A stretch of DNA of 44,873 bases, from positions 1 to 44,873 of IMG/VR virus record IMGVR_UViG_3300045741_000267, one strand, 5' to 3'. The notes beneath the pieces were generated by a model. The model saw nothing but the letters and a program-made list of their open reading frames with translations, had not been told where the DNA came from and did not search any database. The translations under genes and the position numbers were made by a program. The stretch comes from a virus. This document shows positions 2,233-31,523 of this stretch, piece after piece. Position 1 is the stretch's first letter; each line of letters starts with the position of its first letter.

Positions 2233-2589
2233 ATGAAAGAAGATTTAGCAGCGCGGTTGTGGCGGGGATTTTGGATTCTGGGTGTTTACATTCGTTTCAC
2301 GTGGAACGCAAACTCCCGTGATGTGCCGTTTAAATACTCCCGCTATAAGACCAGCCGTGAGACTTCCCATTGGTTCTGGCGGTTTAATTGGGAGACGTTC
2401 AAAATGAGTAAAGAACCGTGTAAAAAGTGTGGTGGGTCTGGCGACTACGGTCTAGGCCAGACTTTCGGCGAGTGTTGGGATTGCGATGGGTCGGGGGAAG
2501 AAAATCTTAAGCGTTGGCTGATCGTGGCCGGTGCTGTAGTTGTTTTGGCCGTGATCGTCGGCATTATAGATATCGTGGTGGGTGCATGA
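2233..2589 (+). CDS. DnaJ-type zinc-finger membrane protein, unknown role
   Basis: This is 118 residues with AGAGAGGG before ATG 2233. The N-terminal ~55 residues are rich in Trp and Phe. Residues 63-87 hold two CxxCxGxG-like motifs (CKKCGGSG and CWDCDGSG), as in the DnaJ central zinc-binding domain. A hydrophobic segment (LIVAGAVVVLAVIVGIIDIV) ends the protein and should anchor it in the membrane. The stop overlaps the next start (ATGA), so it is translationally coupled to the UvrD-like helicase. No J-domain is present, so it is not a full co-chaperone. Confidence 0.7.
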   Translation: MKEDLAARLWRGFWILGVYIRFTWNANSRDVPFKYSRYKTSRETSHWFWRFNWETFKMSKEPCKKCGGSGDYGLGQTFGECWDCDGSGEENLKRWLIVAGAVVVLAVIVGIIDIVVGA

Positions 2590-4013
2590 AAGCTTGCGCC
2601 ATTTACGGTCCCCCGGGGTGTGGTAAGACTACTGAAATGCTTCGCCGCGTGGCTGAGGCTGGTACCCGTGTCAACCCAAGTGAGATCTGTTTTCTCTCAT
2701 TCACCAAGGCTGGGGCAGCTGAAGCGCTGAAGCGTCTGAACATCTCCCGGTCAGATAAGATTTGCACCATCCACTCGTTAATGTTCCGGTTAAATGGTAT
2801 GACCAGTGCCGGTGTGGTAGATTCCGCCAAGTTACGTAAGTTCGGGGATAAGGCCGGTTTCCGGTTTCGTGGCCAATCGAACGACACCGGTGAGCAAATG
2901 GAGATTGGTGACCAGTATCTAGCTATCCTGTCCCGGGCTGTGAACCGAATGGTTGATCTGTGGGATGAGTACCATGAATCAGATCGCCCCGGCGATTGGG
3001 AAGGCTTCCGGTTCTTCTGCGAGTCGTACAACGCATGGAAGCAGTCGAACGGCTATTGTGATTTTAACGACATGTTGTCCTTTTATGTGAAGAGCCGCCA
3101 TAACAGCCACACCCCCAAGATGAGTGTCGTGTTCGTGGACGAGGCCCAAGATCTGTCCAATCTACAATGGGAAGCTATCCGCACCTTGATCACCCAGTCG
3201 GGTGCGTCAGAAATCCACATTGCCGGGGATGACGATCAGGCTATTTACGAGTGGTCCGGAGCCAGTACCCACGGCATGTTAGCGTTTGAGGAAGAATTCA
3301 ATGCTATCCGCACAGTGCTGACCCAATCTTGGCGTGTACCTATTGCGGTTCACGGTATGGCCATGAAGGTGGTTCAGCGAATCGGCTCCCGGGTCGAGAA
3401 GATTTACTCACCGAAACCTGAACCCGGTTTAGTTGTGCGGTCATCCTACTTTAACCCGAAAAACATCGCCCCGGGCCGAGATACTCTGGTTCTGTGCCGT
3501 AACTACATCACTCGGAAAGAGATCGAGGATGAGCTGATTCGTCACCGAATCCCGTATGTTAACGAGGGGGGTCTCCCGGGCCTCTTCGGCACTCGACTGG
3601 CCGATGGGATACGGGCATTCAATAAGATGCAGCGAGGCGAACCCGTGTCCCCCAGTGAGCTAGAAAAAATAGCTTTGGTAGCCAACGAGAGAACCAAGCA
3701 CGAAGTTCAAACCCGGAATTTTAAACCGATGTTGGAGCGCGGGTTTATGCGATCGCTGGTGATCCCACCTCAGTTGGTGGATTTTTATCGCGACGCTGAT
3801 CTGACCGGTGAGCCACACATCCGGCTATCAACCATCCATTCGGCCAAGGGGCGCGAAGCTGATCATGTGATCATTCACCCGGGGCTGACCCAAAAAACGC
3901 TGGTGGACATGGAGAATAACCCGGACAGTGAAGCCCGTGTATGGTACGTGGCAGTGACCCGGGCCAAACACACCCTAGAGATACTTGAAGGAGATAACGC
4001 ATATGGCTTATGA
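2586..4013 (+). CDS. UvrD/Rep-family (superfamily 1A) DNA helicase
   Basis: This is 475 residues from ATG 2586, which overlaps the previous stop. The upstream in-frame ATG at 2514 would only add residues unlike any helicase. Walker A GPPGCGKTT is at residues 8-16, followed by motif Ia (LSFTKAGAAEAL). Motif II is VVFVDEAQDL, motif III is GDDDQAIYEWSGA, motif V is STIHSAKGREADHV and motif VI is VWYVAVTRAKHTL. This set defines a 3'-5' UvrD/PcrA or Dda-like helicase that unwinds replication or recombination intermediates. It is shorter than bacterial UvrD (about 700 residues), consistent with reduced 1B/2B subdomains. It is coupled to the neighbours on both sides. Confidence 0.92.
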   Translation: MKACAIYGPPGCGKTTEMLRRVAEAGTRVNPSEICFLSFTKAGAAEALKRLNISRSDKICTIHSLMFRLNGMTSAGVVDSAKLRKFGDKAGFRFRGQSNDTGEQMEIGDQYLAILSRAVNRMVDLWDEYHESDRPGDWEGFRFFCESYNAWKQSNGYCDFNDMLSFYVKSRHNSHTPKMSVVFVDEAQDLSNLQWEAIRTLITQSGASEIHIAGDDDQAIYEWSGASTHGMLAFEEEFNAIRTVLTQSWRVPIAVHGMAMKVVQRIGSRVEKIYSPKPEPGLVVRSSYFNPKNIAPGRDTLVLCRNYITRKEIEDELIRHRIPYVNEGGLPGLFGTRLADGIRAFNKMQRGEPVSPSELEKIALVANERTKHEVQTRNFKPMLERGFMRSLVIPPQLVDFYRDADLTGEPHIRLSTIHSAKGREADHVIIHPGLTQKTLVDMENNPDSEARVWYVAVTRAKHTLEILEGDNAYGL

Positions 4014-5115: not shown

Positions 5116-5306
5116 TGGATGTGAAACCGCGAGCATGGATGCGCAGGTGGGCGTATGACGGTGAAACCCCACAAAAGGTGAGGGATGTGGATGGGCATAT
5201 GAAATGGCCGGGTAAGTTCAAGTTAAAGCCGATCACGATTGTTAAGTGTCTCCCTGATGATGTCCCCCTATATGTGATCAAAGAAGCCGTGGACGGGGGT
5301 GAGTGA
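5115..5306 (+). CDS. hypothetical protein
   Basis: This is 63 residues in a TAATG overlap with the previous gene and directly abutting the polymerase start. It is basic with several Trp (WMRRWAYDG, MKWPGKFKLKP). I do not recognise it. The tight packing on both sides supports it being real. Confidence 0.55.
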   Translation: MDVKPRAWMRRWAYDGETPQKVRDVDGHMKWPGKFKLKPITIVKCLPDDVPLYVIKEAVDGGE

Positions 5307-7135
5307 TGGAAGTCCCCCGTTTAAGTGAATTCCCGGTTATCGCAATCGACACCGAAACCACCGGTCTGCATTGGTGGAAAGATAAGGTGTTCGGGATATC
5401 GGTGTCGACCCCCGGAGGGCAGGACTGGTATTGGGATATCCGGGAGGAACCCCGCGCGGTTGAGTTCCTCCGTGACGAGATCCCTAAATGCCAATGGGTG
5501 GTCGCTCATAATGCCAAGTTTGACTGGCACATGTTGCGATGTCTTGGGATCAACCTGCCCCGGGATCGCACCGATGACACCATGATCCGAGCAGCGATTA
5601 TCGACGAACACTTGTTATCGTACGATCTAGGCAGTCTGGGGCACAAATACGTCGGTGCTGGTAAAGATGAGGATATCTGGCAGGAGCTGGCCGACATCTT
5701 CGGGGGCAAACCCACCAAACACGCTCAGGTCGGCAACCTGCCCAGAGCACCGAGACATATCGTTGCCCGCTATGCCAAGATGGATACCCGAGTCACTCTG
5801 ATGCTCTGGCAGCACCAGAACACCCTGATCGAAGAGCAGAATCTGCAAGCCGTTTGCGATCTGGAACGTCGCTTGCTTCCGGTGATCGTTGATATGGAGT
5901 TGGGTGGGGTTAAAGTCAACACCGAGATGGCTGAACAAGCCGTGGTTAAGATCAGCTCCCAAGCTAGTACCGCCCAATATCAGTTGGACAGCCTCGCTGG
6001 ATTTGCGGTCAACCCTAATCCGTCCGGTTCAATCAAGAAGCTGTTCGAGCCCAAACAAGACAAGGCTGGTAATTGGGTTCTGAATGACGGCACCGTGGCT
6101 GGGACCACTGAGGCCGGTGGAGTAAGTATCGATGCTTCTGTGTTGCGCCGAATGAAGCACCCGGCAGCCTCAGTCATTCTGAAGTTGCGAAAGTTGCTGA
6201 AGACCCGGGATACATTCTTAAAGGGCCACATTCTAGGTCACCACCATAACGGGGTGATCCATGCTAACTACAACCAAACCAAGTCGGACAACGACTTAGG
6301 GACCGGCACTGGGCGGCTGTCGGTTAACGACCCCGCGCTACAACAGATTCATAAGCGCGACACCGAGATTGCCAGTGTGGTCCGGGCTATGTTCCTACCG
6401 GATTCATTGGGGCATGACTGGGTTTGTAACGATTGGGCTCAAATGGACTTTCGCGTGTTTGCCCACTACGTTAACGACCCGGCGATCATCGCCATGTATC
6501 GTAAAGACCCTGACACTGATTTCCATCAGGTGACGTCGGACCTGACCGGCCTGCCGCGCTCACCACGGTTCGCCGGTGACGCCAACGCTAAGCAGATCAA
6601 TCTTGGGTTGGTGTTTGGCATGGGCCAGGGGAAATTGGCACAGGAAATGGGATTACCATTCACCGTCGAACCGAACACCCGTACTGGGGGCACATGGAAC
6701 AAACCGGGGGCAGAAGCGTTGGAAGTGTTCAATAAATACCACTCATCGATCCCGGGTGTGCAGGAACTGTTACGGAATGCATCATCGGTGGCCAAGTCCC
6801 GTGGCTATGTCCGGACCATCATCGGAAGACGTATCCGGTTCCCCAAGGGGCAGTTCACCCACAAGGCCGGGGGTTTAATATTCCAGGGTTCGGCGGCAGA
6901 CGCCTTGAAGGTTAAGATCATCGAGGTACATGATTACTTATCGTCTCTCAACGACGGGAGTCGGTTGGTGCTTAATGTACACGATGAATTCGATACTTCT
7001 ATACTTAAAGGGAACAAACTGGTAAGGGATGAGATATCCCGGATCGTGACTGACTTCAGTGGTCCGATTAAGTTCAGGGTACCGATTCGAACAGATCAGG
7101 GGGTGGCGGATAACTGGTGGGATGCATGTAAGTAG
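5306..7135 (+). CDS. dpoZ: family A DNA polymerase with 3'-5' exonuclease, candidate Z-genome polymerase
   Basis: This is 609 residues from ATG 5306. Residues 1-180 form the exonuclease: D15-T-E17 (Exo I), AHNAKFDWHML (Exo II) and YAKMDTRV (Exo III). The polymerase palm has motif A D376-W-A-Q-M-D-F-R383, motif B around K429-Q-I-N-L-G-L-V-F-G438, and motif C H559-D-E561. Compared with E. coli Pol I (DYSQIELR; KAINFGLIYG), the steric-gate Glu is Asp, the O-helix Phe762 position is Leu433 and the Tyr766 position is Phe437. No 5' nuclease domain is present. Being in the same early region as PurZ, MazZ and DatZ genes suggests the DpoZ type that tolerates or prefers dZTP. The family is certain; the Z preference is inferred. 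Confidence 0.93.
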   Translation: MEVPRLSEFPVIAIDTETTGLHWWKDKVFGISVSTPGGQDWYWDIREEPRAVEFLRDEIPKCQWVVAHNAKFDWHMLRCLGINLPRDRTDDTMIRAAIIDEHLLSYDLGSLGHKYVGAGKDEDIWQELADIFGGKPTKHAQVGNLPRAPRHIVARYAKMDTRVTLMLWQHQNTLIEEQNLQAVCDLERRLLPVIVDMELGGVKVNTEMAEQAVVKISSQASTAQYQLDSLAGFAVNPNPSGSIKKLFEPKQDKAGNWVLNDGTVAGTTEAGGVSIDASVLRRMKHPAASVILKLRKLLKTRDTFLKGHILGHHHNGVIHANYNQTKSDNDLGTGTGRLSVNDPALQQIHKRDTEIASVVRAMFLPDSLGHDWVCNDWAQMDFRVFAHYVNDPAIIAMYRKDPDTDFHQVTSDLTGLPRSPRFAGDANAKQINLGLVFGMGQGKLAQEMGLPFTVEPNTRTGGTWNKPGAEALEVFNKYHSSIPGVQELLRNASSVAKSRGYVRTIIGRRIRFPKGQFTHKAGGLIFQGSAADALKVKIIEVHDYLSSLNDGSRLVLNVHDEFDTSILKGNKLVRDEISRIVTDFSGPIKFRVPIRTDQGVADNWWDACK

Positions 7136-8574: not shown

Positions 8575-8576
8575 TT

Positions 8577-8804
8577 GTGACTATACACTACCCGGTTGGG
8601 TTGGAAAACCGGTATAATACCACCCGCATTATTGATTCTAAGGGGCAGTTAATCGCTCGCACCGAAATGGGCGCTGCAGCGGCTGTTGAAATCCGGGACG
8701 CACTGAACCACTGGGGCAATGTCAAGAAAGCCCGGGCTGCGCAAATTGAGGCCACCCACCGTATCAACAAGTTTGAAATTAACCCAAGGAGAGAAACACC
8801 ATGA
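8577..8804 (+). CDS. hypothetical protein
   Basis: This is 75 residues from GTG 8577, chosen because GGAGAA (8565-8570) is well placed and the previous gene ends at 8574. GTG 8556 and 8562 are alternatives. It is a short alpha/beta protein with an Ala- and Lys-rich helix. The end overlaps the PurZ start (ATGA), so it is coupled to it. Confidence 0.55.
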   Translation: MTIHYPVGLENRYNTTRIIDSKGQLIARTEMGAAAAVEIRDALNHWGNVKKARAAQIEATHRINKFEINPRRETP

Positions 8805-9946
8805 GCAAGCCAACACGTAAAGTAAGTTTAATCATCGACCTGCAGTTTGGATCCACCGGTAAGGGGGCATTGGCTGGTTATCTGGCCACCCGGGACAAGC
8901 CCGACACCGTAGTTACCGCTTGGGCGGCAAACGCTGGTCACACATTCATCGACGGTAATGACCGGAAGTATGTTCACACCATGCTGGCCAACGGGGTCGT
9001 GTCCACCGGCTTGAAGCAAGTCCTGATTGGCCCCGGTTCTATCATCGACCCTGATAATCTCCTAAAAGAGATCAAACAATGTGCCGACAAGCTGGTGGGG
9101 GTGGATATTGTGGTTCACCAAAATGCTGCCGTGATCACCGACATTCACCGGGATGAGGAAGCAGCTCAAGGTGGATCCATGACCAAGATCGGGTCTACCA
9201 AAAAGGGCTGCGGGGCTGCTGCCATCCAGCGGATTCGTCGTGAACCGAAGTATAACAACACTGCCAAAGAAGAGCTGTTGGGGGTCGGCCACCCGGTGAT
9301 GCGCTTCATCCGTGTGGCCACACCAGCCGAGTACAATGCCTGTTTGGATAAGGCCGAAAACATTCTAGTTGAGGGTGCACAGGGTCACTCGTTATCGATG
9401 TACCATGGTTTCTACCCCTATTGCACTTCCCGCGATGTGTCCACTGCCCAGATCCTTGCCGATTGTGGAATCCCACCGTTCGGATTCGCCGATATTAAGG
9501 TAATCGGGACAGCACGCACGTACCCTATTCGTGTGGCCAACCGTTTCAACGAGGCGGGTGATCAGGTGGGTTGGTCCGGGCCGTGTTACCCGGACCAAGA
9601 GGAAACGTCTTTCGAGGCCATCGGTCAACAGGTCGAATTGACCACCGTGACCAAGCTCCCGCGTCGGATCTTCACATTCTCTCTGATGCAGATCAAAGAG
9701 GCTGTTCGTCAGAATGGTGTTGATGAGATCTTCTTGAACTTCGTTAATTACTGTTCGCCAATCGATGCCTACGCTATCGTTCAACAGATCACCGAGGTGT
9801 GCAAGGTCAGCTACTTAGGTTACGGGCCTGGAATTGAAGATATGGTTGAGACGAATAGTAGCATTCAACCACCGTTGGACTTCGGGGTTGAAGACCGTAA
9901 GATAATCGGGTATGACCTAGCTAAGGACGACCATGCCGACATTTAA
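8801..9946 (+). CDS. purZ: PurZ: succinoaminodeoxyadenylate synthetase (PurA paralogue)
   Basis: This is 381 residues after a strong AAGGAG. It belongs to the adenylosuccinate synthetase family: the P-loop-like FGSTGKGA at 16-23, NAGHT at 44-48 (His47 equals PurA His41), GSTKKGCGAA and VEGAQG. PurA has GDEGKGK, with Asp as general base; here the Asp is Ser18. Replacement by a small residue makes room for the 2-amino group of dGMP and is the hallmark of phage PurZ. Expected reaction: dGMP + aspartate + ATP (or dATP) to N6-succino-2-amino-dAMP, then host PurB gives dZMP. It is shorter than bacterial PurA (about 430). MazZ and DatZ genes follow, overlapping or adjacent. Family is certain; PurZ specificity rests on Ser18 and context. 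Confidence 0.93.
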   Translation: MSKPTRKVSLIIDLQFGSTGKGALAGYLATRDKPDTVVTAWAANAGHTFIDGNDRKYVHTMLANGVVSTGLKQVLIGPGSIIDPDNLLKEIKQCADKLVGVDIVVHQNAAVITDIHRDEEAAQGGSMTKIGSTKKGCGAAAIQRIRREPKYNNTAKEELLGVGHPVMRFIRVATPAEYNACLDKAENILVEGAQGHSLSMYHGFYPYCTSRDVSTAQILADCGIPPFGFADIKVIGTARTYPIRVANRFNEAGDQVGWSGPCYPDQEETSFEAIGQQVELTTVTKLPRRIFTFSLMQIKEAVRQNGVDEIFLNFVNYCSPIDAYAIVQQITEVCKVSYLGYGPGIEDMVETNSSIQPPLDFGVEDRKIIGYDLAKDDHADI

Positions 9947-10439
9947 ATCCGACAGTATCCGAGGATTAACCACCGAGATCACTGGGTGGGCTAATGAAAC
10001 GTTCCCTGACCGTACCCCGGCTTCGGCTCTTTTGAAGCTGTTCGGTGAGATTGGGGAGCTGATCGAGTCCCCGCGCTCACCGGGGGAGTACGCGGACATC
10101 TGTATTTTGCTGTTCGACTTAGCTAATATGCACGGGATCGATCTTGGGCAGGCCATTTGGGATAAAATGCAGATTAACAAAGGCCGCACATGGTCGTTAT
10201 CCGAGTCCGGCACCTATCGACATATCGAGGGCGAATGTCAGCAAGTGGAAGAGTATGCAGATCCCGACTCAGTGGCCACCTTGACCCTGCCGTACAATCT
10301 CGGGTATGAGGATGCCAAGGATGGGTTAAGCCCTAGATCCGTGCTCACTCTGTCCGGGGCTGATGTCCCAACCACAATGGACAACACGCGCAACTATCTA
10401 GCTGGTTACAATTCTTTCCCCGGGGGTGAGCATGGCTAA
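9933..10439 (+). CDS. mazZ: MazZ: MazG-like (d)GTP pyrophosphohydrolase with C-terminal extension
   Basis: This is 168 residues, overlapping PurZ by 14 bases with AAGGAC upstream. Residues 1-90 are an all-alpha NTP pyrophosphatase module: E39-I-G-E42 and E52-Y-A-D55 give the metal-binding ExxE and ExxD pairs. In Z phages the enzyme turns dGTP/GTP into (d)GMP, the PurZ substrate. Residues about 92-168 are an extension not needed by the MazG fold, with LGYEDAKDGL and LAGYN motifs reminiscent of short phage GYxDG-type proteins. The specific dGTP activity is inferred from its place between PurZ and DatZ. Confidence 0.85.
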   Translation: MPTFKSDSIRGLTTEITGWANETFPDRTPASALLKLFGEIGELIESPRSPGEYADICILLFDLANMHGIDLGQAIWDKMQINKGRTWSLSESGTYRHIEGECQQVEEYADPDSVATLTLPYNLGYEDAKDGLSPRSVLTLSGADVPTTMDNTRNYLAGYNSFPGGEHG

Positions 10440-10980
10440 CTCATTAACGCTATCCCAAAAGCTCCGAGCATCCCACGTGAAGCGGTGGCAAATTGTGAAC
10501 GTGTCCCGTCAGCAAACGATCGCTGAACACATGTTCAACGTGAACCTGATCGCTATGGAAATCGGGCGCAGAATGGGCATTAACCGCGCTGGGATGGAGT
10601 ACATTAGTCGGTGGGCGTTAATTCACGATATCCCCGAGGTGGTGACCGGTGACATTGCCACTCCAACCAAGCAAGCAATGCGGGCAGCGGTCCCGGATTC
10701 GGACCCAATCCATCACGTGGAATTGAGCCTAGATGATGAGTATAAGGAGTTGTACTTGACCATGAAAAAAGATATGCCGGTGGAACTGGATGTGGTTAAG
10801 TTGGCGGACATGATCGATGCTGCTGTGTTCCTGCTGGATCACGGTATTGGAAGGCACGCGGAGCAGGTCCGGCTCACGATTGTCCACGATATGCGTAAAA
10901 AGGTCACCGACTGCGCCAAAAAATACACGGGTGCTAATTGGTCCGTGGTAACAGACATTTACAACAAATTAGTGGGTTAA
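10432..10980 (+). CDS. datZ: DatZ: HD-domain dATP triphosphohydrolase
   Basis: This is 182 residues from ATG 10432 (GGGGGTGAG just upstream). With this start the residues R18, W19 and H33 fall at the same numbers as in E. coli YfbR, followed by H65-D66, E69, D74 and the second-half D126 in KLADMIDA: the complete HD metal set. In Z-genome phages this family removes dATP (to deoxyadenosine and triphosphate) so adenine is not built into DNA. It overlaps MazZ by 8 bases. A generic 5'-nucleotidase is the alternative, made less likely by context. Confidence 0.87.
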   Translation: MANSLTLSQKLRASHVKRWQIVNVSRQQTIAEHMFNVNLIAMEIGRRMGINRAGMEYISRWALIHDIPEVVTGDIATPTKQAMRAAVPDSDPIHHVELSLDDEYKELYLTMKKDMPVELDVVKLADMIDAAVFLLDHGIGRHAEQVRLTIVHDMRKKVTDCAKKYTGANWSVVTDIYNKLVG

Positions 10981-13427: not shown

Positions 13428-14006
13428 ATGGCTACGAAATTAACTGACATGGATTGGGTTCAGGTTCGGATTGAACGAGAGACCCGGGGCACCAGCTTCC
13501 CAGCATTGGCAAAGCAGTGGGGAATTAGTCATCAGCGTATCCAGTCCAAAGCACGGGAGCAGGGGTGGTCCGATGGCACCGATGGCAACAATAAGGCCAA
13601 CATTCTCGCCCGTGAGCGTGCTGCAGGGATAGCGGCAGCCAGTGACCCCGCCCGTGAAGCCACTATTAGTAAAGCGGCTGATGATAAAGTCGCCATATTG
13701 GTCAACCACCGTAAGGATTGGGCTCAACATCGTGAGATTTACGACCTAGGTGAGATGGCCGCAGGTCTGATCCCGGGTGAAGAAGATGTAGACATCGATG
13801 ACCCGGATAAGTTGGATCTTAGTGATAACGTTAGCTTGCAAAGGCTGAATCTCGGGATGTCCATGCTCAAGCTCAAGTGCGCTAAGGTAGCTGCCGACGT
13901 ACTTAAATTGCGTCAGGATGGTGAGCGTAGAGCCTACAACATCTCTGATGAAGATTTCAACAAGAATAATGCACCTAAGAGCCTTGCCGATTTTTATGGT
14001 GAATAA
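13428..14006 (+). CDS. terS: terminase small subunit
   Basis: This is 192 residues, taken from ATG 13428 (starts at 13383 or 13413 lie inside the operator region). The N-terminal ~45 residues form a helix-turn-helix (SFPALAKQWGISHQRIQSKAREQGW) for binding the packaging site. A middle helical part (NHRKDWAQHREIYDLGEMA) fits oligomerisation. The acidic stretch EEDVDIDDPDKLDLSD is notable. It opens the late operon and overlaps TerL. Confidence 0.85.
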   Translation: MATKLTDMDWVQVRIERETRGTSFPALAKQWGISHQRIQSKAREQGWSDGTDGNNKANILARERAAGIAAASDPAREATISKAADDKVAILVNHRKDWAQHREIYDLGEMAAGLIPGEEDVDIDDPDKLDLSDNVSLQRLNLGMSMLKLKCAKVAADVLKLRQDGERRAYNISDEDFNKNNAPKSLADFYGE

Positions 14007-15405
14007 CGAGCCATCACGGTTGAATCCTGCGCTTCGAGAGTTCTGGCGGACCAAGGCCAGATACCGTGTTTTGTTGGGTGGCCGAGCATCAAGTAAGTCG
14101 TGGGACGCTGCTGGGTTTGCCATCTATCTGGCGTCTAACTACCGGGTCAGATTCCTTTGTGCCCGTCAGTTTCAAAACCGCATCGCTGATTCCGTGTATG
14201 CTCTATTAGAGATCCAAGCAGAACGATTTAAAGTCCATGATGAATTCCATTTTACCGATAACTCGATCATCCATAAAGGCACTGGGTCCGAGTTCCTGTT
14301 TTATGGGATCGCTCGTAATTTAAAAGAGATTAAGTCCACCGAGAACATAGACATCTTCTGGTTAGAAGAAGGTGACCAGCTCGACGCTGAACAATGGAAG
14401 CTGATCGAGCCTACCGTACTGCGCAAACAAGGATCACAGGCATGGATCGTGTTTAATCCCCGGTTCGCCTCTGATTTTGTGTACCAGCGCTTCATTGTGA
14501 GCCCACCACCTAAGACTATCTCCCGTCACATTAATTGGGATGAGAATCCTTTCTTGTCTGACGACATGAGGGAGATCATCATTAATGCAAAAGAAGAGGA
14601 CGAGGATGAGTACAACCATGTTTATTTGGGCATCCCTCTGACCGATGATGAGCGGGTTATTATCAAACGCTCTTGGATCGAGGCCGCTATAGACGCCCAC
14701 ATTAAGTTGGGGTTTGAGCCTGAGGGCCGTAAAGTGATCGGGTTCGATGTAGCTGATGATGGTGACGATAAGTGTGCCAATGTTGAGGCGCATGGCTCTG
14801 TGGCTCTGTGGTGTGAAGAGTGGAAAGGCGGCGAGGATGAGTTACTTAAATCGTGTTCACGTACATACCTGAACGCGTCCGAGCGTGGTACAATGATAAG
14901 GTATGACTGTATTGGTGTTGGCGCTGGTGCAGGAGCTAAGTTCGATGAGTTGAACCAAGGCAGGGTGCAAAAGGTGAAGTATGCTAAATTTAATGCCGGT
15001 GATGCTGTACATGAGCCCGAACGGTTCTATGTCCAGAACAGACAAGAGCGAATCAAGAACAAGAACTACTTCGGTAACCTCAAGTCACAAACGTGGTGGT
15101 TGATCGCCGACCGGTTTAGAAATACGTACAATGCTATCCGATATGGTACGCACTACGAGCCCGATCAATTAATCAGCATCTCATCTAAGATGCCGCATTT
15201 AGAGAAGCTCAAAACAGAATTGTCGACCCCTCGCCGCGATTTTGACCAAAATGGCCGGGTTAAGGTGGAGAGTAAAAAGGATCTGGCTAAACGGAACATC
15301 GCCAGCCCCAACATCGCTGATGCTTTCGTGATGTGCTTTGCCCCTGAGGGTCACGGTCAAATAAAAATTAGTAATGCAGCCGTAACCAACGCTGCACGCA
15401 GGTAA
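13996..15405 (+). CDS. terL: terminase large subunit
   Basis: This is 469 residues from ATG 13996 (GTG 13999 possible). The ATPase has Walker A GGRASSKS (28-35), adenine-binding CARQFQNRI, and Walker B IDIFWLEEGDQL. The nuclease starts with VIGFDVADDGDDK, supplying the first metal-binding Asp, and ends near ASPNIADAFVMCF with a further acidic residue. It translocates DNA into the prohead and cuts it. The layout matches the terminase_3/XtmB-type group. The end type (pac or cos) cannot be read from sequence alone. Confidence 0.93.
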   Translation: MVNNEPSRLNPALREFWRTKARYRVLLGGRASSKSWDAAGFAIYLASNYRVRFLCARQFQNRIADSVYALLEIQAERFKVHDEFHFTDNSIIHKGTGSEFLFYGIARNLKEIKSTENIDIFWLEEGDQLDAEQWKLIEPTVLRKQGSQAWIVFNPRFASDFVYQRFIVSPPPKTISRHINWDENPFLSDDMREIIINAKEEDEDEYNHVYLGIPLTDDERVIIKRSWIEAAIDAHIKLGFEPEGRKVIGFDVADDGDDKCANVEAHGSVALWCEEWKGGEDELLKSCSRTYLNASERGTMIRYDCIGVGAGAGAKFDELNQGRVQKVKYAKFNAGDAVHEPERFYVQNRQERIKNKNYFGNLKSQTWWLIADRFRNTYNAIRYGTHYEPDQLISISSKMPHLEKLKTELSTPRRDFDQNGRVKVESKKDLAKRNIASPNIADAFVMCFAPEGHGQIKISNAAVTNAARR

Positions 15406-15426: not shown

Positions 15427-17058
15427 ATGGTATGGACCGTCATTAAAAACCTATTCCCCCACATCAGCCAAGACACATCCCCGGTGGCCCCCGGTGTGGT
15501 TTCCGTCAAGAAGCAGCCCAAAGGCATATCCAACGCGGCCATCGCCCGGGCCAAGGAGAAAACCGAAGCGCATCGGCCCTACCATTACCCCCTGAAACCA
15601 CCCACGATGGCTCCCGGTGTGGTCCCTGAGGGTGTGACACCTGCCGTGGCTATGGATGCTGCGGTTTACGACTACGCTATGACCAGCTACAACGGTGTTG
15701 GTTATTCCAGTGGGGGATTTCCAGGGTTCCAGTACTTATCTATGTTGGCGACCCGGGCCGAGTACCAAGCATTCTCTAACACCCTGTCTTCAGAGTTGAC
15801 CCGTGAGTGGATTAAGTTCTCCAGTGCAAACGACAATGTTGAGAAGATCGCCCAGATTGAAGCCGAAATGACCCGACTCGGTGTCCGCGATGTTTTCCAA
15901 GAGGCCGCTGCGCATGAGGTGATGTTCGGTCGAGCCCAGATCTTCATCAATATCAGGGGCCATGACAATAAAATGCCTTTGATCCTATCAGATAAGACTA
16001 TCAGCCCCGGCTCACTCAAGAGCCTGTCCGCTGTTGAGGCTGTTTGGACCACACCCAATAGCTATAACGCCCTAGACCCATCAGCACCGGACTTCTACAC
16101 CCCAACCAGCTGGTTCATGTTGGGCAAGGAAACGCATTCATCCCGGTTAATGACCGTGATCACCCGTGAGTTACCGGACATCCTCAAACCCGCGTACAAC
16201 TTCGCTGGTATGTCGCTGTACCAGTTGGCCGAGCCATATGTGGATAATTGGCTGCGCACCCGTCAGAGTGTGTCTGACCTCATTAACAACTTCTCCATCA
16301 CCGCCCTCGCCACGGCCATGGACCAAGTGCTACAGGGCAACGATGATGGATCTGACCTGATCAAACGCGCAGAGCTATTCACCGCATATCGCAGTAACAA
16401 GGGATTAATGCTACTTGATAAAGATCGTGAAGAGTTAGTGCAAGTTAATACCCCCTTGAGTGGTCTACATGAACTTCAAGCCCAATCTCAAGAGCACATG
16501 TGTTCGGTGAGCCGTATACCAGCGATCGTCTTAACTGGGATCAGCCCCAGCGGGTTGAATGCTTCTAGTGATGGCGAGATCCGGATCTTCTACGACTGGA
16601 TCAAAGCCCAGCAAAACGCCCACTGGCGTGAGCCCCTGACCGTGGTCGTTAAGGTGGTTCAACTATCCCTGTTCGGCGAGATTGACCCGGACATCACGTT
16701 TGACTTTGTGCCCCTGTACCAAATGACCCCGGCTGAAGAGTCAGAGATCCGCTTGAAAAATTCCCAAGCCGCCACAGCCTATATCGGTGCTGGCGTAATT
16801 GATCCAACCGAAGAGCGTGAACGTATTGCCCGTGATCCACATAGTGGGTACAACAGTATCGATGTTGACGATATACCCGTACCGCCCAATGAACCAGCCC
16901 CGGGCGAATCAGATCCAATGGAGGACGACGCATCCCCGGCGCAGGACAAGAGCGTAAGTGAGGCCCAACACAAGGCAATGGAAGCGGCAGCACATGGCCA
17001 CAGCACACTGGGTATCCCTGAGGAAGTCGGTAAAGAATATGTCTCAAAAGATAGTTAG
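15427..17058 (+). CDS. portal protein (DUF1073 type)
   Basis: This is 543 residues with AAAGGG before ATG 15427. It matches the DUF1073 portal family: SAVEAVWTTPNSYNA, FYTPTSWFMLGKETHSSR, SLYQLAEPYVDNWLRT and SRIPAIVLTGISPSGLNASSDGE. The N-terminal 70 residues are Pro-rich and basic and the C-terminal 50 acidic and flexible. Twelve copies are expected to form the ring through which DNA is packed and to which the neck binds. It overlaps the next gene by 20 bases. Confidence 0.92.
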   Translation: MVWTVIKNLFPHISQDTSPVAPGVVSVKKQPKGISNAAIARAKEKTEAHRPYHYPLKPPTMAPGVVPEGVTPAVAMDAAVYDYAMTSYNGVGYSSGGFPGFQYLSMLATRAEYQAFSNTLSSELTREWIKFSSANDNVEKIAQIEAEMTRLGVRDVFQEAAAHEVMFGRAQIFINIRGHDNKMPLILSDKTISPGSLKSLSAVEAVWTTPNSYNALDPSAPDFYTPTSWFMLGKETHSSRLMTVITRELPDILKPAYNFAGMSLYQLAEPYVDNWLRTRQSVSDLINNFSITALATAMDQVLQGNDDGSDLIKRAELFTAYRSNKGLMLLDKDREELVQVNTPLSGLHELQAQSQEHMCSVSRIPAIVLTGISPSGLNASSDGEIRIFYDWIKAQQNAHWREPLTVVVKVVQLSLFGEIDPDITFDFVPLYQMTPAEESEIRLKNSQAATAYIGAGVIDPTEERERIARDPHSGYNSIDVDDIPVPPNEPAPGESDPMEDDASPAQDKSVSEAQHKAMEAAAHGHSTLGIPEEVGKEYVSKDS

Positions 17059-17833
17059 ATCAGTAGCAGCCAATCGGGGGACCGAGGCTGCTTACCGGAA
17101 AAAACTTCAAACACTGGTCGCCGAGATGCATACGTCATTCGAGTACTGGATTAAGGCCGAGTACCACCGGAATCCGCCCCGGGTGGCCGTCTTGGTAGAA
17201 CAGGCTCAAGATGCCGCCCCCGCCCCCGCCCCCATGATGTCAAAGCTGTTGAAGCAGCTTGGCAAGCGTTGGATTAAGAAGTTCGAAGACGCCGCCCCCG
17301 GGATCGCTGAAGCGTACCTCAAAGGCATGTTCAAGGTCACCGATTCCGCCTTCCGTCGTGCACTCAAAGATGCGGGGTTATCGGTTGAATTCACCATGAC
17401 TGCCCCCGTCCGAGATGCTTTCAATGCATCCTTACAAGAGAATGTTGGTCTGATCAGTTCGCTACCCATGCAGCATTATGCCAAAATCGAAGGCATTGTG
17501 ATGCGGTCATATTCCACTGGTCGCGATCTTGAGACCATGGTTAAGGAACTAAAGGAAGTCTACCCATTCACCCAGAAGCGAGCAGAATTGATCGCCCGCG
17601 ATCAGTCGAACAAGGCTAATGCTGTAGTGCAGCGGACCCGCCAAATGGAACTAGGTATAACCGAGGCAATCTGGATGCACTCGCATGCCGGAAAGAACCC
17701 CCGCCCTACCCACGTAGCTGCCAACGGTAAGAAGTACAAAATAGCTGAAGGATGTCTGATCGACGGTAAGTACATACTTCCCGGGGAAGAGATCAACTGC
17801 AGGTGCACGAGCCGGTCCGTACTACCTTTCTGA
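17039..17833 (+). CDS. MuF-like minor head protein
   Basis: This is 264 residues from ATG 17039, overlapping the portal gene end. The C-terminal third (TQKRAELIARDQSNKANAV, WMHSHAGKNPRPTHVAANGK, GEEINCRCTSRSVLPF) is the classic MuF/SPP1 gp7 domain ending in the INCRC motif. Such proteins sit inside the capsid near the portal and may be ejected with DNA. The N-terminal part is helical with an Ala/Pro-rich stretch (AAPAPAPM). Confidence 0.9.
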   Translation: MSQKIVRSVAANRGTEAAYRKKLQTLVAEMHTSFEYWIKAEYHRNPPRVAVLVEQAQDAAPAPAPMMSKLLKQLGKRWIKKFEDAAPGIAEAYLKGMFKVTDSAFRRALKDAGLSVEFTMTAPVRDAFNASLQENVGLISSLPMQHYAKIEGIVMRSYSTGRDLETMVKELKEVYPFTQKRAELIARDQSNKANAVVQRTRQMELGITEAIWMHSHAGKNPRPTHVAANGKKYKIAEGCLIDGKYILPGEEINCRCTSRSVLPF

Positions 17834-17837
17834 TAGA

Positions 17838-17867
17838 TTGACGGTCCATTATTTGACATGGTACGAT
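17838..17867 (+). promoter_or_regulatory. internal promoter inside the head-gene module
   Basis: TTGACG (17838-17843), 18 bp ending in TGG, TACGAT (17862-17867). It has the same architecture as the early promoters, placed in the gap between the MuF-like gene and the next gene. Confidence 0.5.
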
Positions 17868-17903
17868 GCTGATAATGCGGTCAAACTATTCCACGGGGTT
17901 TAA

Positions 17904-19016
17904 ATGAGCGATACACCAGATATTTTCAAACCCGGCGGTGCTGCCAGTATCGGACACCAACTGGTCGCTGATGGGGCCAACGTCGGCGCTGCCAACCCAC
18001 TGCCCGTGACAATAGGTGGTTCCACTGGTGGTGTGGTACCGGTTAAACAAGCTCCCGGCGAAACGTTCGATATGACCCCACATGCTGGGTCGACTTTTGT
18101 CGTAACCGGCATCACAAGCCCAGACGATCAAGTTACCACATTTAGTTTTACGGCTGCAGCTCAGGAGCAGGTGATCAATCTTGCGGGGGCTGGGACGGCA
18201 TATCTAATTATTGATACTCTGGGTGCTGGTGGTCTGATCACCGTTAAATTCAGTCAAAACGGTTCTACTTACGGACCGTCGGTGCAAGGCACCCCCATTC
18301 GCGTATCAACTCAGACTTACAATGGTCCACCGATCTCCAGCCTATCAGCCGGTCAAACCATCTACCGCTTCAACACGGTAGGCATCCAAAACATGAAGGT
18401 CACAGCCGCAGTATTACCTACGGGCACTGCTGTTGGGTCAGTCCGGGTCAGCTCCAACGTCGGTATGGTTGCGGTCGATGGCCCTGTAAGCACAGAAAGC
18501 TTACAGGACACCCAAGTATTCAGCTTCACGGATCTGTCTACTTTCGCATCTACGGTCACAGACATTCTGGCCATTCGTTCAAGTGGTAAGCTCAACATTT
18601 GCCGTATCGAGCTGTTCGCCAATGCGGCTACCGCTGCCAACATTCCATTCAAAGTGATCCAGCGGACCGCGGTAAACACAGTGGAAACAGGTGCAACCAG
18701 CATGGATGCATCGGCTAAATTCGATACACAGGACGGGTTCCAGTCCGACACAACCACGGCTAAAACTTATGGGGCCACAGCGCCCACACTAAATGGCACC
18801 GCGACAACGTTATGGACTGATGAACTTTATGTTAGAGCTGCCGGAACCCCCGGACCGGTACAAAAAACCGTCATTACGTTCGGTTCCGAATACTGGAAGT
18901 CGGTGAAACGTCGTAATCCAGAACAGTTCAGCGTGAGTTTTAATGGTATCTCATCCGCGTCGTTACCTGCTGCCCTTAAGATCTCCGGTAATATTGTTGT
19001 GACATCTGGAACCTAA
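17904..19016 (+). CDS. putative virion surface protein, unknown
   Basis: This is 370 residues, ATG 17904. It is rich in Thr, Ser, Gly and Val and predicted to be almost all beta. It has repeated jelly-roll-like stretches (GAGTAYLIIDTLGAGG, SSGKLNICRIELFANA) and no enzymatic motif. Head fibres and decoration proteins look like this. It has its own promoter upstream and is followed four bases later by the glycoside hydrolase, suggesting the two act together. Not recognised as a named family. Confidence 0.6.
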   Translation: MSDTPDIFKPGGAASIGHQLVADGANVGAANPLPVTIGGSTGGVVPVKQAPGETFDMTPHAGSTFVVTGITSPDDQVTTFSFTAAAQEQVINLAGAGTAYLIIDTLGAGGLITVKFSQNGSTYGPSVQGTPIRVSTQTYNGPPISSLSAGQTIYRFNTVGIQNMKVTAAVLPTGTAVGSVRVSSNVGMVAVDGPVSTESLQDTQVFSFTDLSTFASTVTDILAIRSSGKLNICRIELFANAATAANIPFKVIQRTAVNTVETGATSMDASAKFDTQDGFQSDTTTAKTYGATAPTLNGTATTLWTDELYVRAAGTPGPVQKTVITFGSEYWKSVKRRNPEQFSVSFNGISSASLPAALKISGNIVVTSGT

Positions 19017-19019
19017 GCC

Positions 19020-20552
19020 GTGACCGCGACTTATCGAGGTACCATCATCGCAAACAGCCTAGCAGTGGACACCACGTTCACAGGGCCAATTACGGTACCT
19101 TCTGGGTTTGTAGGGATTCACAATAACAGTATCGGCTCTGGTCACGCTGCGATCACAGACCCCGCCGTTATCACTGTGGCATTGATAAACGGTAAGGTGG
19201 TCCCCACTGTGGTGTACCCGGGGTCGGGTTACTATTATTCGGCGCACAAATGGACACTTGTTGTATTTAGTGGCGGTGACTCACCAACCCCCGCAGTTGG
19301 GTATCCGACCATTGACCCGGCTTTAGGTGGTATCACTGGGGTCGTAATTACGGACCATGGCCATTATACAGCCGTCCCACCCTCGATATCTCTTGTGCGC
19401 GTCGGTGGGCCCAATTTACCGGTGGTCCCTGATTCAATTCAATCAATTCGGACTCACGACTATATTGGGTCTTTTGCTGTCGGTGCCACATGTTGGTACA
19501 CCACCGACCCATCGGACGGGTCCGGTAATTACAATTGGGCTGCGCTAGATGAATGTATTTTGTGGCATGGCGGTTTAGGCCGTGAGATTATGTACGGTCT
19601 TCACGGCACCCCCACGAATTACGCAACATCCTTGGCATACATCGGTGTCAGCTTTGAGAATCAACTTGGGGCCAGTTCCCCCTTAAACGCTGCCGGGTTG
19701 GTTGTGGGTCAAGACAACCACGGTCTCTGGGGGTTTATAAAGGCTCTGGTATTGCGGTATAACATTAACACAGATCAGAGGATCAACCCCCACACCGGGC
19801 AGTATTTCCCACCCAACATGAAATTCATTAAAGAGATCGAAGTGTGGAATGAGCCCACCTTCGGTGCAAACGGTACGGCCATACCCGGACAAAATGGTAA
19901 ATACTGGCTTGGTACAGCGCAACAATTAGTTGATATCGCCCGTATTGTTAATCTGTCCGCGAAAGCAATCGACCCGGACATTCAAATTGTGGGGTGTGGG
20001 TTCACTGCTGGGTATCCCATGGGGGTGGGCACCACCAGTGCCAATCACTTTTACAATTTTCTTGTGGCTGTCGACAGCGTCCAAGGCCTAGGGGGTTACG
20101 ATTGGTGTGACGGTTTCTCACTACACCCGTACGACCTATTGGAGACCGGATCACATTTCATGCGGGCGACCTCCCGATATTTTGCGCCAAAGATCGCCGA
20201 GATGCGGTCAGCTATTTCCGCAGTAAGTTCATTAAAGCCTGTTTATTGTACAGAATGGGGGTTCTATGACCCCGACACCGTATTTCAAAAGGTCAACAAC
20301 CCGATACTGAACGGTATCCAAATAAACCGGATCTACGCAGAACATCTACAACAAGGTGTGCGTAAGTCGTTCGGGTATTCCTTGGAGTCCATATACTTTG
20401 GTTACCCAACGTTTAACCCATATGGGTCGGCGTATCTGGAAGCGGTCGGATTAGGTATAGCCCCGGGCAAAACACTGATTACAGTCAAGCGCGATAAGTC
20501 AGCAGCCAAGCAGTTAATATATAGCGATGGCTCGACGTATTACACGACATAG
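19020..20552 (+). CDS. clan GH-A glycoside hydrolase (GH39/GH5-like), virion-associated
   Basis: This is 510 residues from GTG 19020. A beta N-terminal domain (about 1-140) precedes a TIM-barrel. EVWNEPTFG supplies the acid/base Glu278 and VYCTEWGFYDP the nucleophile Glu412, the two-glutamate pair of retaining clan GH-A enzymes; GLHGTPTNY and GFSLHPYD are further barrel strands. It probably cleaves host capsule, O-antigen or exopolysaccharide. It is placed in the head module, not with tail fibres, which is unusual. Substrate cannot be told from sequence. Confidence 0.75.
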   Translation: MTATYRGTIIANSLAVDTTFTGPITVPSGFVGIHNNSIGSGHAAITDPAVITVALINGKVVPTVVYPGSGYYYSAHKWTLVVFSGGDSPTPAVGYPTIDPALGGITGVVITDHGHYTAVPPSISLVRVGGPNLPVVPDSIQSIRTHDYIGSFAVGATCWYTTDPSDGSGNYNWAALDECILWHGGLGREIMYGLHGTPTNYATSLAYIGVSFENQLGASSPLNAAGLVVGQDNHGLWGFIKALVLRYNINTDQRINPHTGQYFPPNMKFIKEIEVWNEPTFGANGTAIPGQNGKYWLGTAQQLVDIARIVNLSAKAIDPDIQIVGCGFTAGYPMGVGTTSANHFYNFLVAVDSVQGLGGYDWCDGFSLHPYDLLETGSHFMRATSRYFAPKIAEMRSAISAVSSLKPVYCTEWGFYDPDTVFQKVNNPILNGIQINRIYAEHLQQGVRKSFGYSLESIYFGYPTFNPYGSAYLEAVGLGIAPGKTLITVKRDKSAAKQLIYSDGSTYYTT

Positions 20553-20558
20553 GGTACA

Positions 20559-21851
20559 ATGAAAACCGCTCACATCCTAAAATTAGCATTCGACAAATCC
20601 TCCCGCCACATTGACGCGGACGGTCGTTTACATGTGATGCGATCTCACATTTCGAAGGCTATGGTGAGCCCCTATTATGGGCGCGAGATCCCAGAATTTG
20701 AGAGTTTAGGTCTGGTCGCTGATCAGGTGTACCGTTTGTTGCGTGATCCGGTTGAATTAGAACGAGGTGCCGAGACATTCGCCCGGTTGCCGGTTCTGTC
20801 TCAACATGTCCCTGTCACAGTTGATACTATGGAGCAGGACGAGGATCAGAAGAAGCTCGTCGTTGGGTCCATTGGGTCCGATGTGTCATTCAACCCCCCC
20901 TACTTAGATGCGGACCTGTGCATTTGGGACAGCAAGGCAATAGCGGGGATTGACAGCGATCAGGTCCGCGAGTTATCATGTGCATACCGTTATGTCCCTG
21001 TAATGGAGTCCGGTGTGTTTGAAGGTGAGCCATATGACGGTCGTATGACTGAGATTAGAGGTAACCACCTAGCGCTGGTTGAGGTCGGACGCGCTGGGCC
21101 TGATGTAGTTGTATCCGATCATAACCCATTCAAAACCAAGGAAACCGCTATGAAAATGAGCAAATTAGGGCGTGCCCTGTTTGTAACATTGTCTGCGTTC
21201 TCTCCGGTGCTTGCAGCGGATTCCGCCATGCCTGCACTGGTGGGTGCTGCGAACAAAAAAACGTTCAATAAGGCCGACATTAAAGCGAAGCTGATCGCGT
21301 TGGATTCCGACATGGACCCAGAGCAGTTGGATAATGTTATTGATGCCCTTCTGGACGTGGAACAAGATCCAAAACCAATGGAGCCCGCCGCCCCAGCCGT
21401 TGATGAGGCACCTGTTGACAAGCTGCGCAGTCTTCTGGCAGGTAAAGTTGACGACGCCACAATGGATGCTGCCTGTGCATTAATGGCTCCCGCCCCAGCT
21501 GCCGACTCCCCCTCTGGGCTGGAAGTAACTGATAAGGGATCTGTGAATGGCCACGCCATGGATGCCGCTCTGGGTAAGTTTAAAACCGAGTTCCGCCAAG
21601 CCGAAGAAGCTAAACGCGACGTCCGCAGTATCGTTGGCGACGTTATCGGTATGGACTCAGCCGCCGAAGTCTATAAGTTTGCCTTGGATCACATGAAGGT
21701 CGATTGCACGGACATTAACGACGCTCTTGCACTGCGCGCTTTGTTCCGCGTGGCGTCAGAAAACAAACTCGCCGCCAAACCCCCTAAGCTTGCGCATGAT
21801 AGCGCTGGCTTGGAAAAGGCTTTCCCTAACGCTGTCCGCTTCGGTCAGTAA
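20559..21851 (+). CDS. prohead protease (DUF2213) fused to scaffold
   Basis: This is 430 residues, ATG 20559. Residues 1-190 match the DUF2213 head maturation protease: HVMRSHISKAMVSPYYGREIP, LPVLSQHVPV, RELSCAYRYVPV and IRGNHLALVEVGRAGPDV. His in GNHLALV and Ser in LSCAY are the likely catalytic pair of this herpesvirus-like fold. Residues 198-430 are Ala/Asp-rich and helical, as in scaffolds. An internal ribosome site can make the scaffold alone (next entry). It is followed by decoration and capsid genes, the usual order. Confidence 0.88.
   Translation: MKTAHILKLAFDKSSRHIDADGRLHVMRSHISKAMVSPYYGREIPEFESLGLVADQVYRLLRDPVELERGAETFARLPVLSQHVPVTVDTMEQDEDQKKLVVGSIGSDVSFNPPYLDADLCIWDSKAIAGIDSDQVRELSCAYRYVPVMESGVFEGEPYDGRMTEIRGNHLALVEVGRAGPDVVVSDHNPFKTKETAMKMSKLGRALFVTLSAFSPVLAADSAMPALVGAANKKTFNKADIKAKLIALDSDMDPEQLDNVIDALLDVEQDPKPMEPAAPAVDEAPVDKLRSLLAGKVDDATMDAACALMAPAPAADSPSGLEVTDKGSVNGHAMDAALGKFKTEFRQAEEAKRDVRSIVGDVIGMDSAAEVYKFALDHMKVDCTDINDALALRALFRVASENKLAAKPPKLAHDSAGLEKAFPNAVRFGQ
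21150..21851 (+). CDS. scaffolding protein from internal in-frame start
   Basis: ATG 21150 lies in frame inside the protease gene (its residue 198) and has AAGGAAA at 21138-21144, a better ribosome site than that of the full gene. The product would be 233 residues, mostly helical and acidic, as for lambda Nu3 inside C. Its first 25 residues (SKLGRALFVTLSAFSPVLA) look oddly like a signal peptide. Existence of the short form is inferred. Confidence 0.55.
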   Translation: MKMSKLGRALFVTLSAFSPVLAADSAMPALVGAANKKTFNKADIKAKLIALDSDMDPEQLDNVIDALLDVEQDPKPMEPAAPAVDEAPVDKLRSLLAGKVDDATMDAACALMAPAPAADSPSGLEVTDKGSVNGHAMDAALGKFKTEFRQAEEAKRDVRSIVGDVIGMDSAAEVYKFALDHMKVDCTDINDALALRALFRVASENKLAAKPPKLAHDSAGLEKAFPNAVRFGQ

Positions 21852-21865
21852 CTGGAGGTATTAAA

Positions 21866-22987
21866 ATGCCATTTCAAAGACAAGTAAATACGACCCAAGC
21901 CCCAGCAGTCGCGGGCGACTTCGCATCAACTAATCCCCGTGCTTCGGTGTTAGCTGGCCCCGGTGGGCTGATCGCTGGCCCAAGTGGTGTGACTGTTGGC
22001 CGCTTTGCATGGGTCGACGACGTTGATGGTGTCACCGTCGACAACTACGGCACTTATACCGGTGCTCCCAGCGGCTTCGTTCATCGCGATAACAACGCAC
22101 TGATCACTGAGTATTTAGGTGAGTCGAGCATGGTGATCCCTAAAGGCTTCCCAGTTACCTTGTTCAATGAGGGTGATTTCTGGGCTAAAGTCGCAGGCGC
22201 CACCGCTGCCACTGTTGGCGCTTCGGTTTATGCCAACTACAACGATGGTACGATTACGATCGGTTCAGCGTCTACTGGTGCTTCCGTAACGGCCACGATT
22301 GGTTCTACCAGCACTGCGGTATTAGGCGCGACTTTCACCGCTTCTGCTGACACTGACGCAACTCAATTGGTGGTCACTTCGGTTACCGGTTTGATCAGCA
22401 TTGGCGATACTGTTGCCGGTACCGGTATCACCGGTGGAACTACCATCCTGTCGCAGGTGAGCGGTACGGCTGGTGGTGCGGGTACTTACAAGCTCAGCGC
22501 AACCAACACGGCCAGTGCAGCTACTGTCACCGCTTTCGGTAAGACCATCAAGACAACCGCAGTTACCGGTTTGATCAGCATTGGTGATACTGTTGCTGGT
22601 GGTGCTGGTTTCCCATCAGGTGCTACTATCGTGGCTCAGGTAAGCGGCACGGCTGGTGGTATTGGTGTTTACACCCTTAGTGCTGCCGGTACCGCGTACA
22701 CCGCAAGTGCTACCGGTGTTACCTCCTTCGGCAGTGTGCTGAATGTCACCGCTGTTGGTTCTGGTACCCTGTACATTGGTGCACCTACCAATACCCCCAC
22801 CGGTGCGGTCATCACCGCTCAGGTGAGCGGGGCCACTGGCGGTGTTGGTGTCTATACTCTAGACACCCGCGCCTCAGCTTATACCGCTTCCGGTACTGTT
22901 ACGACTGTCGGTGGTGTGCTGACTGCGTTCAAAGCCCAATCGGTCGCCGCTGTCGGTGAACTTGTTAAAATCTCAACCCGAGGCTAA
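21866..22987 (+). CDS. capsid decoration/cement protein with inserted repeats
   Basis: This is 373 residues with GGAGGT before ATG 21866. The N-terminal 130 residues (GRFAWVDDVDGVTVDN, VIPKGFPVTLFNEGDFWAKV) match structural cement proteins that sit next to DUF2184 capsid genes. The N-terminal part seems to break at about residue 130 and to resume at the end (LTAFKAQSVAAVGELVKIS). Between are about three copies of a Thr/Ser/Gly repeat containing V-TGLISIGDTVAG and AQVSGTAGG-G-Y-LS, an adhesin-like surface module. Confidence 0.72.
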   Translation: MPFQRQVNTTQAPAVAGDFASTNPRASVLAGPGGLIAGPSGVTVGRFAWVDDVDGVTVDNYGTYTGAPSGFVHRDNNALITEYLGESSMVIPKGFPVTLFNEGDFWAKVAGATAATVGASVYANYNDGTITIGSASTGASVTATIGSTSTAVLGATFTASADTDATQLVVTSVTGLISIGDTVAGTGITGGTTILSQVSGTAGGAGTYKLSATNTASAATVTAFGKTIKTTAVTGLISIGDTVAGGAGFPSGATIVAQVSGTAGGIGVYTLSAAGTAYTASATGVTSFGSVLNVTAVGSGTLYIGAPTNTPTGAVITAQVSGATGGVGVYTLDTRASAYTASGTVTTVGGVLTAFKAQSVAAVGELVKISTRG

Positions 22988-22990
22988 ACT

Positions 22991-24028: not shown

Positions 24029-24038
24029 TACTTCCAAC

Positions 24039-24072
24039 GGGGGCAGAACATCGCCCCTACCATTTCTATTTA
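24039..24072 (+). other. hairpin after capsid gene (weak terminator or attenuator)
   Basis: GGGGC (24040-24044) pairs with GCCCC (24053-24057) over 8 bases, followed by a pyrimidine-rich stretch without a long T-run. It could lower read-through from the highly expressed capsid gene. Confidence 0.4.
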
Positions 24073-24088
24073 AATTGGAGAGATTTAA

Positions 24089-24409: not shown

Positions 24410-24411
24410 AG

Positions 24412-25262: not shown

Positions 25263-25263
25263 T

Positions 25264-26138: not shown

Positions 26139-26168
26139 CAGCGATTCTATTTTCAATGAGGTGAAAAC

Positions 26169-27698: not shown

Positions 27699-27708
27699 GG
27701 GGTAAGTA

Positions 27709-28146: not shown

Positions 28147-28157
28147 TGCGTTGAAAA

Positions 28158-28212: not shown

Positions 28213-28244
28213 CCCCCACTGGAGAGATAACGGAGAGTTATCAC

Positions 28245-28849: not shown

Positions 28850-28850
28850 A

Positions 28851-30743: not shown

Positions 30744-30745
30744 CC

Positions 30746-31522: not shown

Positions 31523-31523
31523 G

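Follow-up and report, generated by a model that had tools for sequence, protein, structure and literature searches.

The window analysed here, a viral contig of 44,873 bases (IMG/VR record IMGVR_UViG_3300045741_000267), carries on its forward strand a member of the adenylosuccinate synthetase family with a serine at the position of a catalytic aspartate. The gene and the two codons on which attention first centred are these:

8801..9946, + strand: purZ, succino-2-amino-deoxyadenylate synthase, 381 aa (NF038379, phrog_1211, best PDB relative 7odx, AlphaFold2 model)
8852..8854, + strand: codon TCC for Ser18, the equivalent of E. coli PurA Asp13 (translation and alignment)
8939..8941, + strand: codon CAC for His47 of NAGHT, conserved (translation and alignment)

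In PurA, Asp13 is the general base. Translation of bases 8801-8869 gives the first 23 residues of the frame, MSKPTRKVSLIIDLQFGSTGKGA, and a stretch resembling a ribosome-binding site, AAGGAGAG, lies upstream of the purZ ATG. FGSTGKGA occupies residues 16-23 and NAGHT residues 44-48, and GSTGKG occurs a single time in the six-frame translation of the window. The earlier note had reported FGSTGKGA with Ser18 and a retained His47, and translation bears out both (TCC at 8852-8854, CAC at 8939). The frame matches Pfam PF00709 (adenylosuccinate synthetase) at 2.9e-38.

A Z replication module joined to a contractile-tail module

Around purZ lie genes for a complete set of pathway partners, and beyond them a second, structural half of the genome. 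The further features are as follows:

9933..10439, + strand: mazZ-like dGTP pyrophosphohydrolase, MazZ-1 type, without N-terminal fusion (PF04447 1.2e-8, above cut-off)
10426..10980, + strand: datZ, dATP triphosphohydrolase, an HD protein (phrog_7076 1.6e-34)
5303..7135, + strand: dpoZ, DNA polymerase of family A, from the group that incorporates aminoadenine (NF038380 831.2 bits, cut-off 500)
2514..4013, + strand: UvrD-like helicase of the Z-phage replication module (Pfam, PHROG, genome comparison)
42019..43590, + strand: PrimPol-type primase of the Z-phage replication module (PF22548 6.5e-14, phrog_21866 2e-116; matched in 7 of 8 Z genomes)
13918..15405, + strand: large terminase, with which the structural half begins (phrog_3717 7e-69)
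15427..38131, + strand: contractile-tail structural module with portal, protease, capsid, sheath, tape measure, baseplate and fibre (PHROG, Pfam, relatives)
26169..27698, + strand: tail sheath, DUF3383 type (PF11863 6.5e-119, phrog_205 2.1e-87)

The three genes purZ, mazZ and datZ (8801-10980) are all present, adjacent, co-directional and overlapping. The window MazZ keeps all of the metal and guanine residues E35, E38, E50, D53, I56, D60 and R83 of S-2L MazZ, as taken from PMC8342488 (whose text writes E53); at I16, N20, E34 and A92 it differs from S-2L, as do the other four MazZ-1 rows. In DatZ, 13 of 13 checked S-2L positions are identical, including W20 and I22; the residues are those named in PMC8065100, where Ile22 excludes the 2-amino group. 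DpoZ scores above its cut-off in 46 of 50 PurZ-bearing records, the window counted, and S-2L is among those without it. A DnaQ-like exonuclease gene lies between helicase and dpoZ (4190-4894); a single one of 15 compared genomes, a PurZ contig, has a match to it, weak (28%) and at another map position.

For 61 ORFs of the window, matches were sought in eight PurZ genomes and in seven relatives that carry the sheath. ORFs starting at 30, 474, 868, 1415, 2514, 5303, 8801 and 10426 match all eight PurZ genomes, those at 9933 and 42019 match seven of the eight, and none of these ten has a match in any of the seven sheath-bearing relatives. Conversely, 22 ORFs from 15427 to 38131 match 7/7 sheath-bearing relatives, and among the eight PurZ genomes only one (G035) matches structural ORFs, namely two of the 22, at 26% and 34%. 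ORFs 17904 and 19020 and the terminase at 13918 match neither compared set. The layout is thus a mosaic, with the structural half at 13918-38131 and the Z replication module at 42019-44873 and 1-12877. Among the products of the structural half are a tape measure, a sheath of DUF3383 type and a Baseplate_J protein. Its terminase shares 59% identity with the one in Pseudomonas phages Orisa and Orimi, whose sheath is likewise related, at 44% identity. Two ORFs of 370 and 510 aa among the head genes (17904-20552) have no Pfam or PHROG match, and the ORF at 1415-2173, which recurs in all eight PurZ genomes and in many Pseudomonas phage records, is a homologue of phage Pam3 gp34 (PF23977).

A combination of this kind raises the question of a chimeric assembly, in which the Z genes would not come from the same genome as the contractile-tail genes; such an error would leave the reading of PurZ untouched. 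The sheath profile was found in none of 74 other PurZ contigs and none of 14 isolates (Aeromonas phage 56 served as positive control), PurZ was found in 0/99 sheath or terminase relatives (99 of 113 loci), and none of the tested viral-contig relatives of either half has both modules; these absences are weak evidence because many contigs are short fragments. PF04984 was dropped as a sheath detector since it misses the sheaths of the window and of Aeromonas phage 56 (0/50), and its null result says only that no other sheath type visible to PF04984 is present. Against a chimera, G+C is even (0.487-0.542 in 2-kb windows), and Burkholderia phage Bm1, discussed below, shows that the combination exists. 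The Z half stands at both contig ends with the structural half between, so that a false assembly would need two joins. Furthermore, with the contig closed on itself, about 456 bases separate its two outermost ORFs, near the 473-566 bases calculated by hand from the genome comparison for seven Z genomes (the eighth has no match), so that the contig resembles a single entire genome, circularly permuted. It contains no exact terminal repeat of 20-399 bases, and a near-identity search of bases 1-25000 against phage records gave no match. We regard a chimera as improbable and read the contig as an almost complete genome, circularly permuted, that arose by exchange of modules.

Assignment to the PurZ family

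The NCBI PurZ model NF038379 gives the window protein 357.7 bits, above its cut-off of 300, and gives S-2L PurZ 349.8, phiVC8 PurZ 397.2 and Bm1 PurZ 320.0 bits. Also above the cut-off are the PurZ0 proteins of phages Wayne (366.7) and Archimedes (325.0), and one phage row, that of Ochrobactrum phage OH, falls below it (241.3). E. coli PurA reaches 126.7, and two chromosomal serine-bearing proteins score 198.4 and 232.6, so that in this set of ten the cellular enzymes lie below the cut-off; the model does not tell PurZ0 from PurZ. The match to phrog_1211 is 1.5e-85, and PHROGs describes that family as '2-aminooxy adenylosuccinate synthetase'.

The best PDB relative of the protein is 7odx, the S-2L PurZ (E 6.5e-92). 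An AlphaFold2 model (31 sequences, pLDDT 85.4, pTM 0.86) superposes on 7odx with a VIA Z of 43.5 (2.2 A over 345 residues), the top hit in both Foldseek and VIA, and on the liganded phiVC8-type entries with Z of about 43; archaeal PurA 5k7x (34.9), PurZ0 7vf6 (34.6) and E. coli PurA 1cg4 (31.7) are more distant. A 72-row tree places the window inside a phage PurZ clade (33-row set, support 97); it was built by a quick method, and its 72 rows, out of 170 available, are the window, E. coli, 38 of 80 genome loci and 32 of 88 phage loci; E. coli PurA and one locus (L243) have long end branches. A serine-type relative from Bacillus phage vB_BpsS-140 (L198, 2959-4077) takes a basal position in the PurZ clade, and the 6.9 kb around that gene have no match to the window datZ or mazZ.

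The residues listed for S-2L PurZ in PMC8342488 were mapped onto the window by sequence alignment rather than on a ligand-bound model, and 26 of 28 active-site positions proved identical. Ser18 aligns with S-2L Ser23, and the dGMP pocket is the same throughout (S-2L G22, S23, N49, A50, G130, S131, T132, R146, Q190, Y203, C204, T205, R240 and V241). The two positions that differ are Tyr21, which is Phe16 in the window, and Gln308, which is Asn316; phiVC8 also has Phe and Asn. Asn316, at the column of S-2L Gln308 and phiVC8 Asn297, suggests by analogy with these two phages that the donor is an adenine nucleotide, and S-2L PurZ was shown to use (d)ATP (PMC8342488). In PMC12884076, PurZ0 and PurZ are said to prefer ATP and GTP 'respectively', a wording that does not agree with the (d)ATP use by S-2L PurZ.

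That purZ has decayed, or serves another purpose and plays no part in Z-DNA, is very unlikely, with the 381-aa frame open and both active site and partner genes intact. Still less credible is an enzyme of PurZ0 type, with a guanine nucleotide donor and a DutZ/DmtZ pathway. PurZ0 also has the serine and, as noted, passes NF038379; the window has GSTGKG rather than GSEAKG, Asn316 rather than the Asp found in 4/4 PurZ0 rows, DatZ and MazZ-1 rather than DutZ/DmtZ as neighbours, and a fold nearer to PurZ than to 7vf6, and the PurZ0 rows form a separate clade in the tree. Equally remote is a housekeeping-type PurA copy boosting AMP from IMP, which would share the fold and the PF00709 family: the ordinary PurA models score far below their cut-offs (TIGR00184 139.2 bits against 395.55), the catalytic Asp of PurA is Ser18 here, and PurZ, DpoZ, MazZ and DatZ occur together.

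The window gene is a clear member of PurZ, a known phage family, and we put the probability that it is the purZ of a 2-aminoadenine (Z-genome) phage at roughly 96%. Sequence, family membership, active-site conservation, gene context and fold could all be observed directly for this protein. Its substrate, its chemistry, its adenine donor and the presence of Z in the DNA would follow from those of its relatives S-2L and phiVC8. On that analogy, MazZ would turn dGTP into dGMP, which PurZ would condense with L-aspartate, using (d)ATP, to succino-2-amino-dAMP, Ser18 lying beside the 2-amino group of dGMP where PurA carries its catalytic Asp. Host PurB and kinases would convert the product to dZTP, DatZ would destroy dATP, and DpoZ would insert dZTP opposite T. 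Since DpoZ would build in dZTP opposite T, adenine would be replaced in the phage DNA and host restriction presumably blunted.

How far the serine reaches

Previous work with phage enzymes found Asp13 replaced by Ser in all PurZ compared (PMC8515928) and Ser in 100% of 147 phage PurZ and PurZ0 sequences (PMC12884076). Both agree with the earlier note, which was right to call the gene PurZ and to place an Asp-to-Ser change at the position of E. coli Asp13; it correctly read an established hallmark of the family in a protein that is a new member. In our own material, serine stands at this site in 14/14 chosen isolates, in all four phage PurZ0 rows and in 70/70 readable viral-contig relatives (74 loci, four truncated). 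The patterns used to collect these contigs left out the residue, and Ser18 is therefore not a matter of chance. Housekeeping PurA has Asp there, in GDEGKGK, in 20/20 bacterial genomes examined.

The same note held that loss of the Asp by itself marks PurZ. This does not hold, as Ser is also found in PurZ0 and, among the matches listed, in most chromosomal paralogues. Among the listed bacterial and archaeal genome loci (80 of 342 confirmed), 69 have Ser, nine Asp, one Gly and one a gap; because one of the two search patterns fixes Ser, biasing the scan, and only these 80 are listed, such counts speak for existence and not for commonness. In the 72-row tree, the rows without Asp (Ser, and one Gly) form a single clade of 67 rows with support 100. 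It contains phage PurZ and PurZ0, along with two 12-row bacterial groups and small pairs of archaeal and of Patescibacteria type; outside it lie the five rows with Asp, one from E. coli and four from archaea. Ser thus marks the whole 67-row clade and is common to proteins without known Z synthesis. It is necessary and not sufficient for a PurZ call; as a sufficient functional mark it was rejected, since PurZ0 and chromosomal paralogues share it and two of the latter fail the PurZ model. Judging from the aligned residues, PurZ proper would be recognised by Ser together with Asn (or Gln) at 316 and, mostly, GSTGKG. The window gene is accordingly assigned from the protein as a whole and from its gene neighbourhood, and the shortcut is corrected: Ser at this site must not serve alone to call PurZ. 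The note's proposal that the change makes space for the 2-amino group fits the S-2L structure, in which the serine adjoins N2 of dGMP, though at a distance (3.7 A) that the authors consider too long for the once-proposed hydrogen bond (PMC8342488).

The chromosomal relatives form a subject of their own. Accessory serine-type genes resembling adenylosuccinate synthetase occur on bacterial chromosomes (L310, 1906-5258; L302, 891-5152; L248, L249, L274 and others of L247-L320). Their operons follow two repeated layouts, both of which include a nucleotide kinase; one adds DUF7002, the other a dCTP-deaminase-like protein. Among the matches listed, 62 genome loci combine Ser or Gly at 18 with Asp at 316; a DUF7002 gene lies near 30 of these and a dCTP-deaminase-like gene near 28, and since one locus has both, 57/62 have one or the other. 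Neither gene was found near any of the nine Asp18 genome loci among the matches listed. Pfam searches of sample loci showed in the first type a nucleotide-kinase-like domain fused to the synthetase and followed by DUF7002 (then, in L310 only, a NUDIX gene), and in the second an RNase H-DUF429-kinase fusion, the synthetase and a DCD-domain protein. PADLOC gave only weak matches on these operons, and in L267 a gene further upstream resembles parts of CapP and DarG. All 20 checked genomes with a paralogue also have a full-length PurA (564-621 bits) with GDEGKGK. No mention of the term DUF7002 was found in the searched literature, and among the listed matches for adenylosuccinate synthetase with anti-phage defense or deoxynucleotides, none recognisably concerned these operons. 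It is conceivable, though we think it unlikely, that the serine is older and wider than phage PurZ, that the chromosomal proteins are (d)GMP enzymes, and that phage PurZ is an offshoot of a cellular pathway and not of ordinary PurA. If the paralogues do act on (d)GMP, bacteria themselves would produce nucleotides of the 2-aminoadenine type, perhaps as a defence against phages.

Comparison with known Z-genome phages

S-2L resembles the window in PurZ fold, active site and serine, in the gene order purZ-mazZ-datZ, in the MazZ-1 type and in PrimPol. It differs in that the PurZ proteins are about 47% identical, with the Gln308/Asn316 exchange described above, in that the window DpoZ has no match in S-2L, and in the virion genes. 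Phage phiVC8 (6fm1) likewise has PurZ and DatZ, and at both columns in which the window and S-2L disagree it shows the residues of the window, Phe and Asn, whereas its MazZ is the MazZ-2 variant (PMC8342488), which has no blastp match to the window MazZ, and its structural gene set is different. Phage PurZ0 (7vf6 of Gordonia phage Archimedes; Arthrobacter phage Wayne) shares the serine and the match to the PurZ model and is set apart by its loop, its Asp at the 316 column, its clade and its neighbours annotated as deoxyuridine triphosphatase.

The less ordinary point is the Z pathway in a contractile-tail genome. A 2021 survey placed all phages with datZ and purZ in the Siphoviridae or Podoviridae (PMC8342488), and the abstract of the DpoZ paper assigns Z phages to the same pair of families (PMC8599892). 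Of the PurZ papers that mention myoviruses, none, as far as visible, reports a contractile-tailed Z phage. The idea that such a phage lacked precedent was dropped once Bm1 was found. Burkholderia phage Bm1 (PP183292) is a myovirus whose tail was seen to be contractile by electron microscopy (PMC12003559), and the terms PurZ, adenylosuccinate and aminoadenine are absent from the main text of that paper. Like the window, Bm1 combines a tail sheath and baseplate with PurZ (320 bits), DpoZ (909 bits), DatZ and a MazZ-like gene (L322, 34728-37748 and 14131-15666). Its MazZ was considered as MazZ-2, an assignment rejected on its 36% identity to the MazZ-1-type protein of the window. The two phages are nonetheless distant: structural proteins are 26-31% identical, PurZ, DpoZ, MazZ and DatZ 28-43%, and Bm1 has 67.5 kb. 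Because Bm1 carries the same genes at such a distance, the window represents a second, separate contractile-tailed lineage with a Z module and not the first.

The window therefore adds one well-supported member to the Z-genome phages. It shows the Z replication module passing as a unit from one virion type to another, in this case to a contractile-tail set, and together with Bm1 it makes two distant contractile-tailed lineages. Should Z-DNA be confirmed in Bm1 or in a relative of the window, the published statement that confines Z-cluster phages to siphoviruses and podoviruses would fall.
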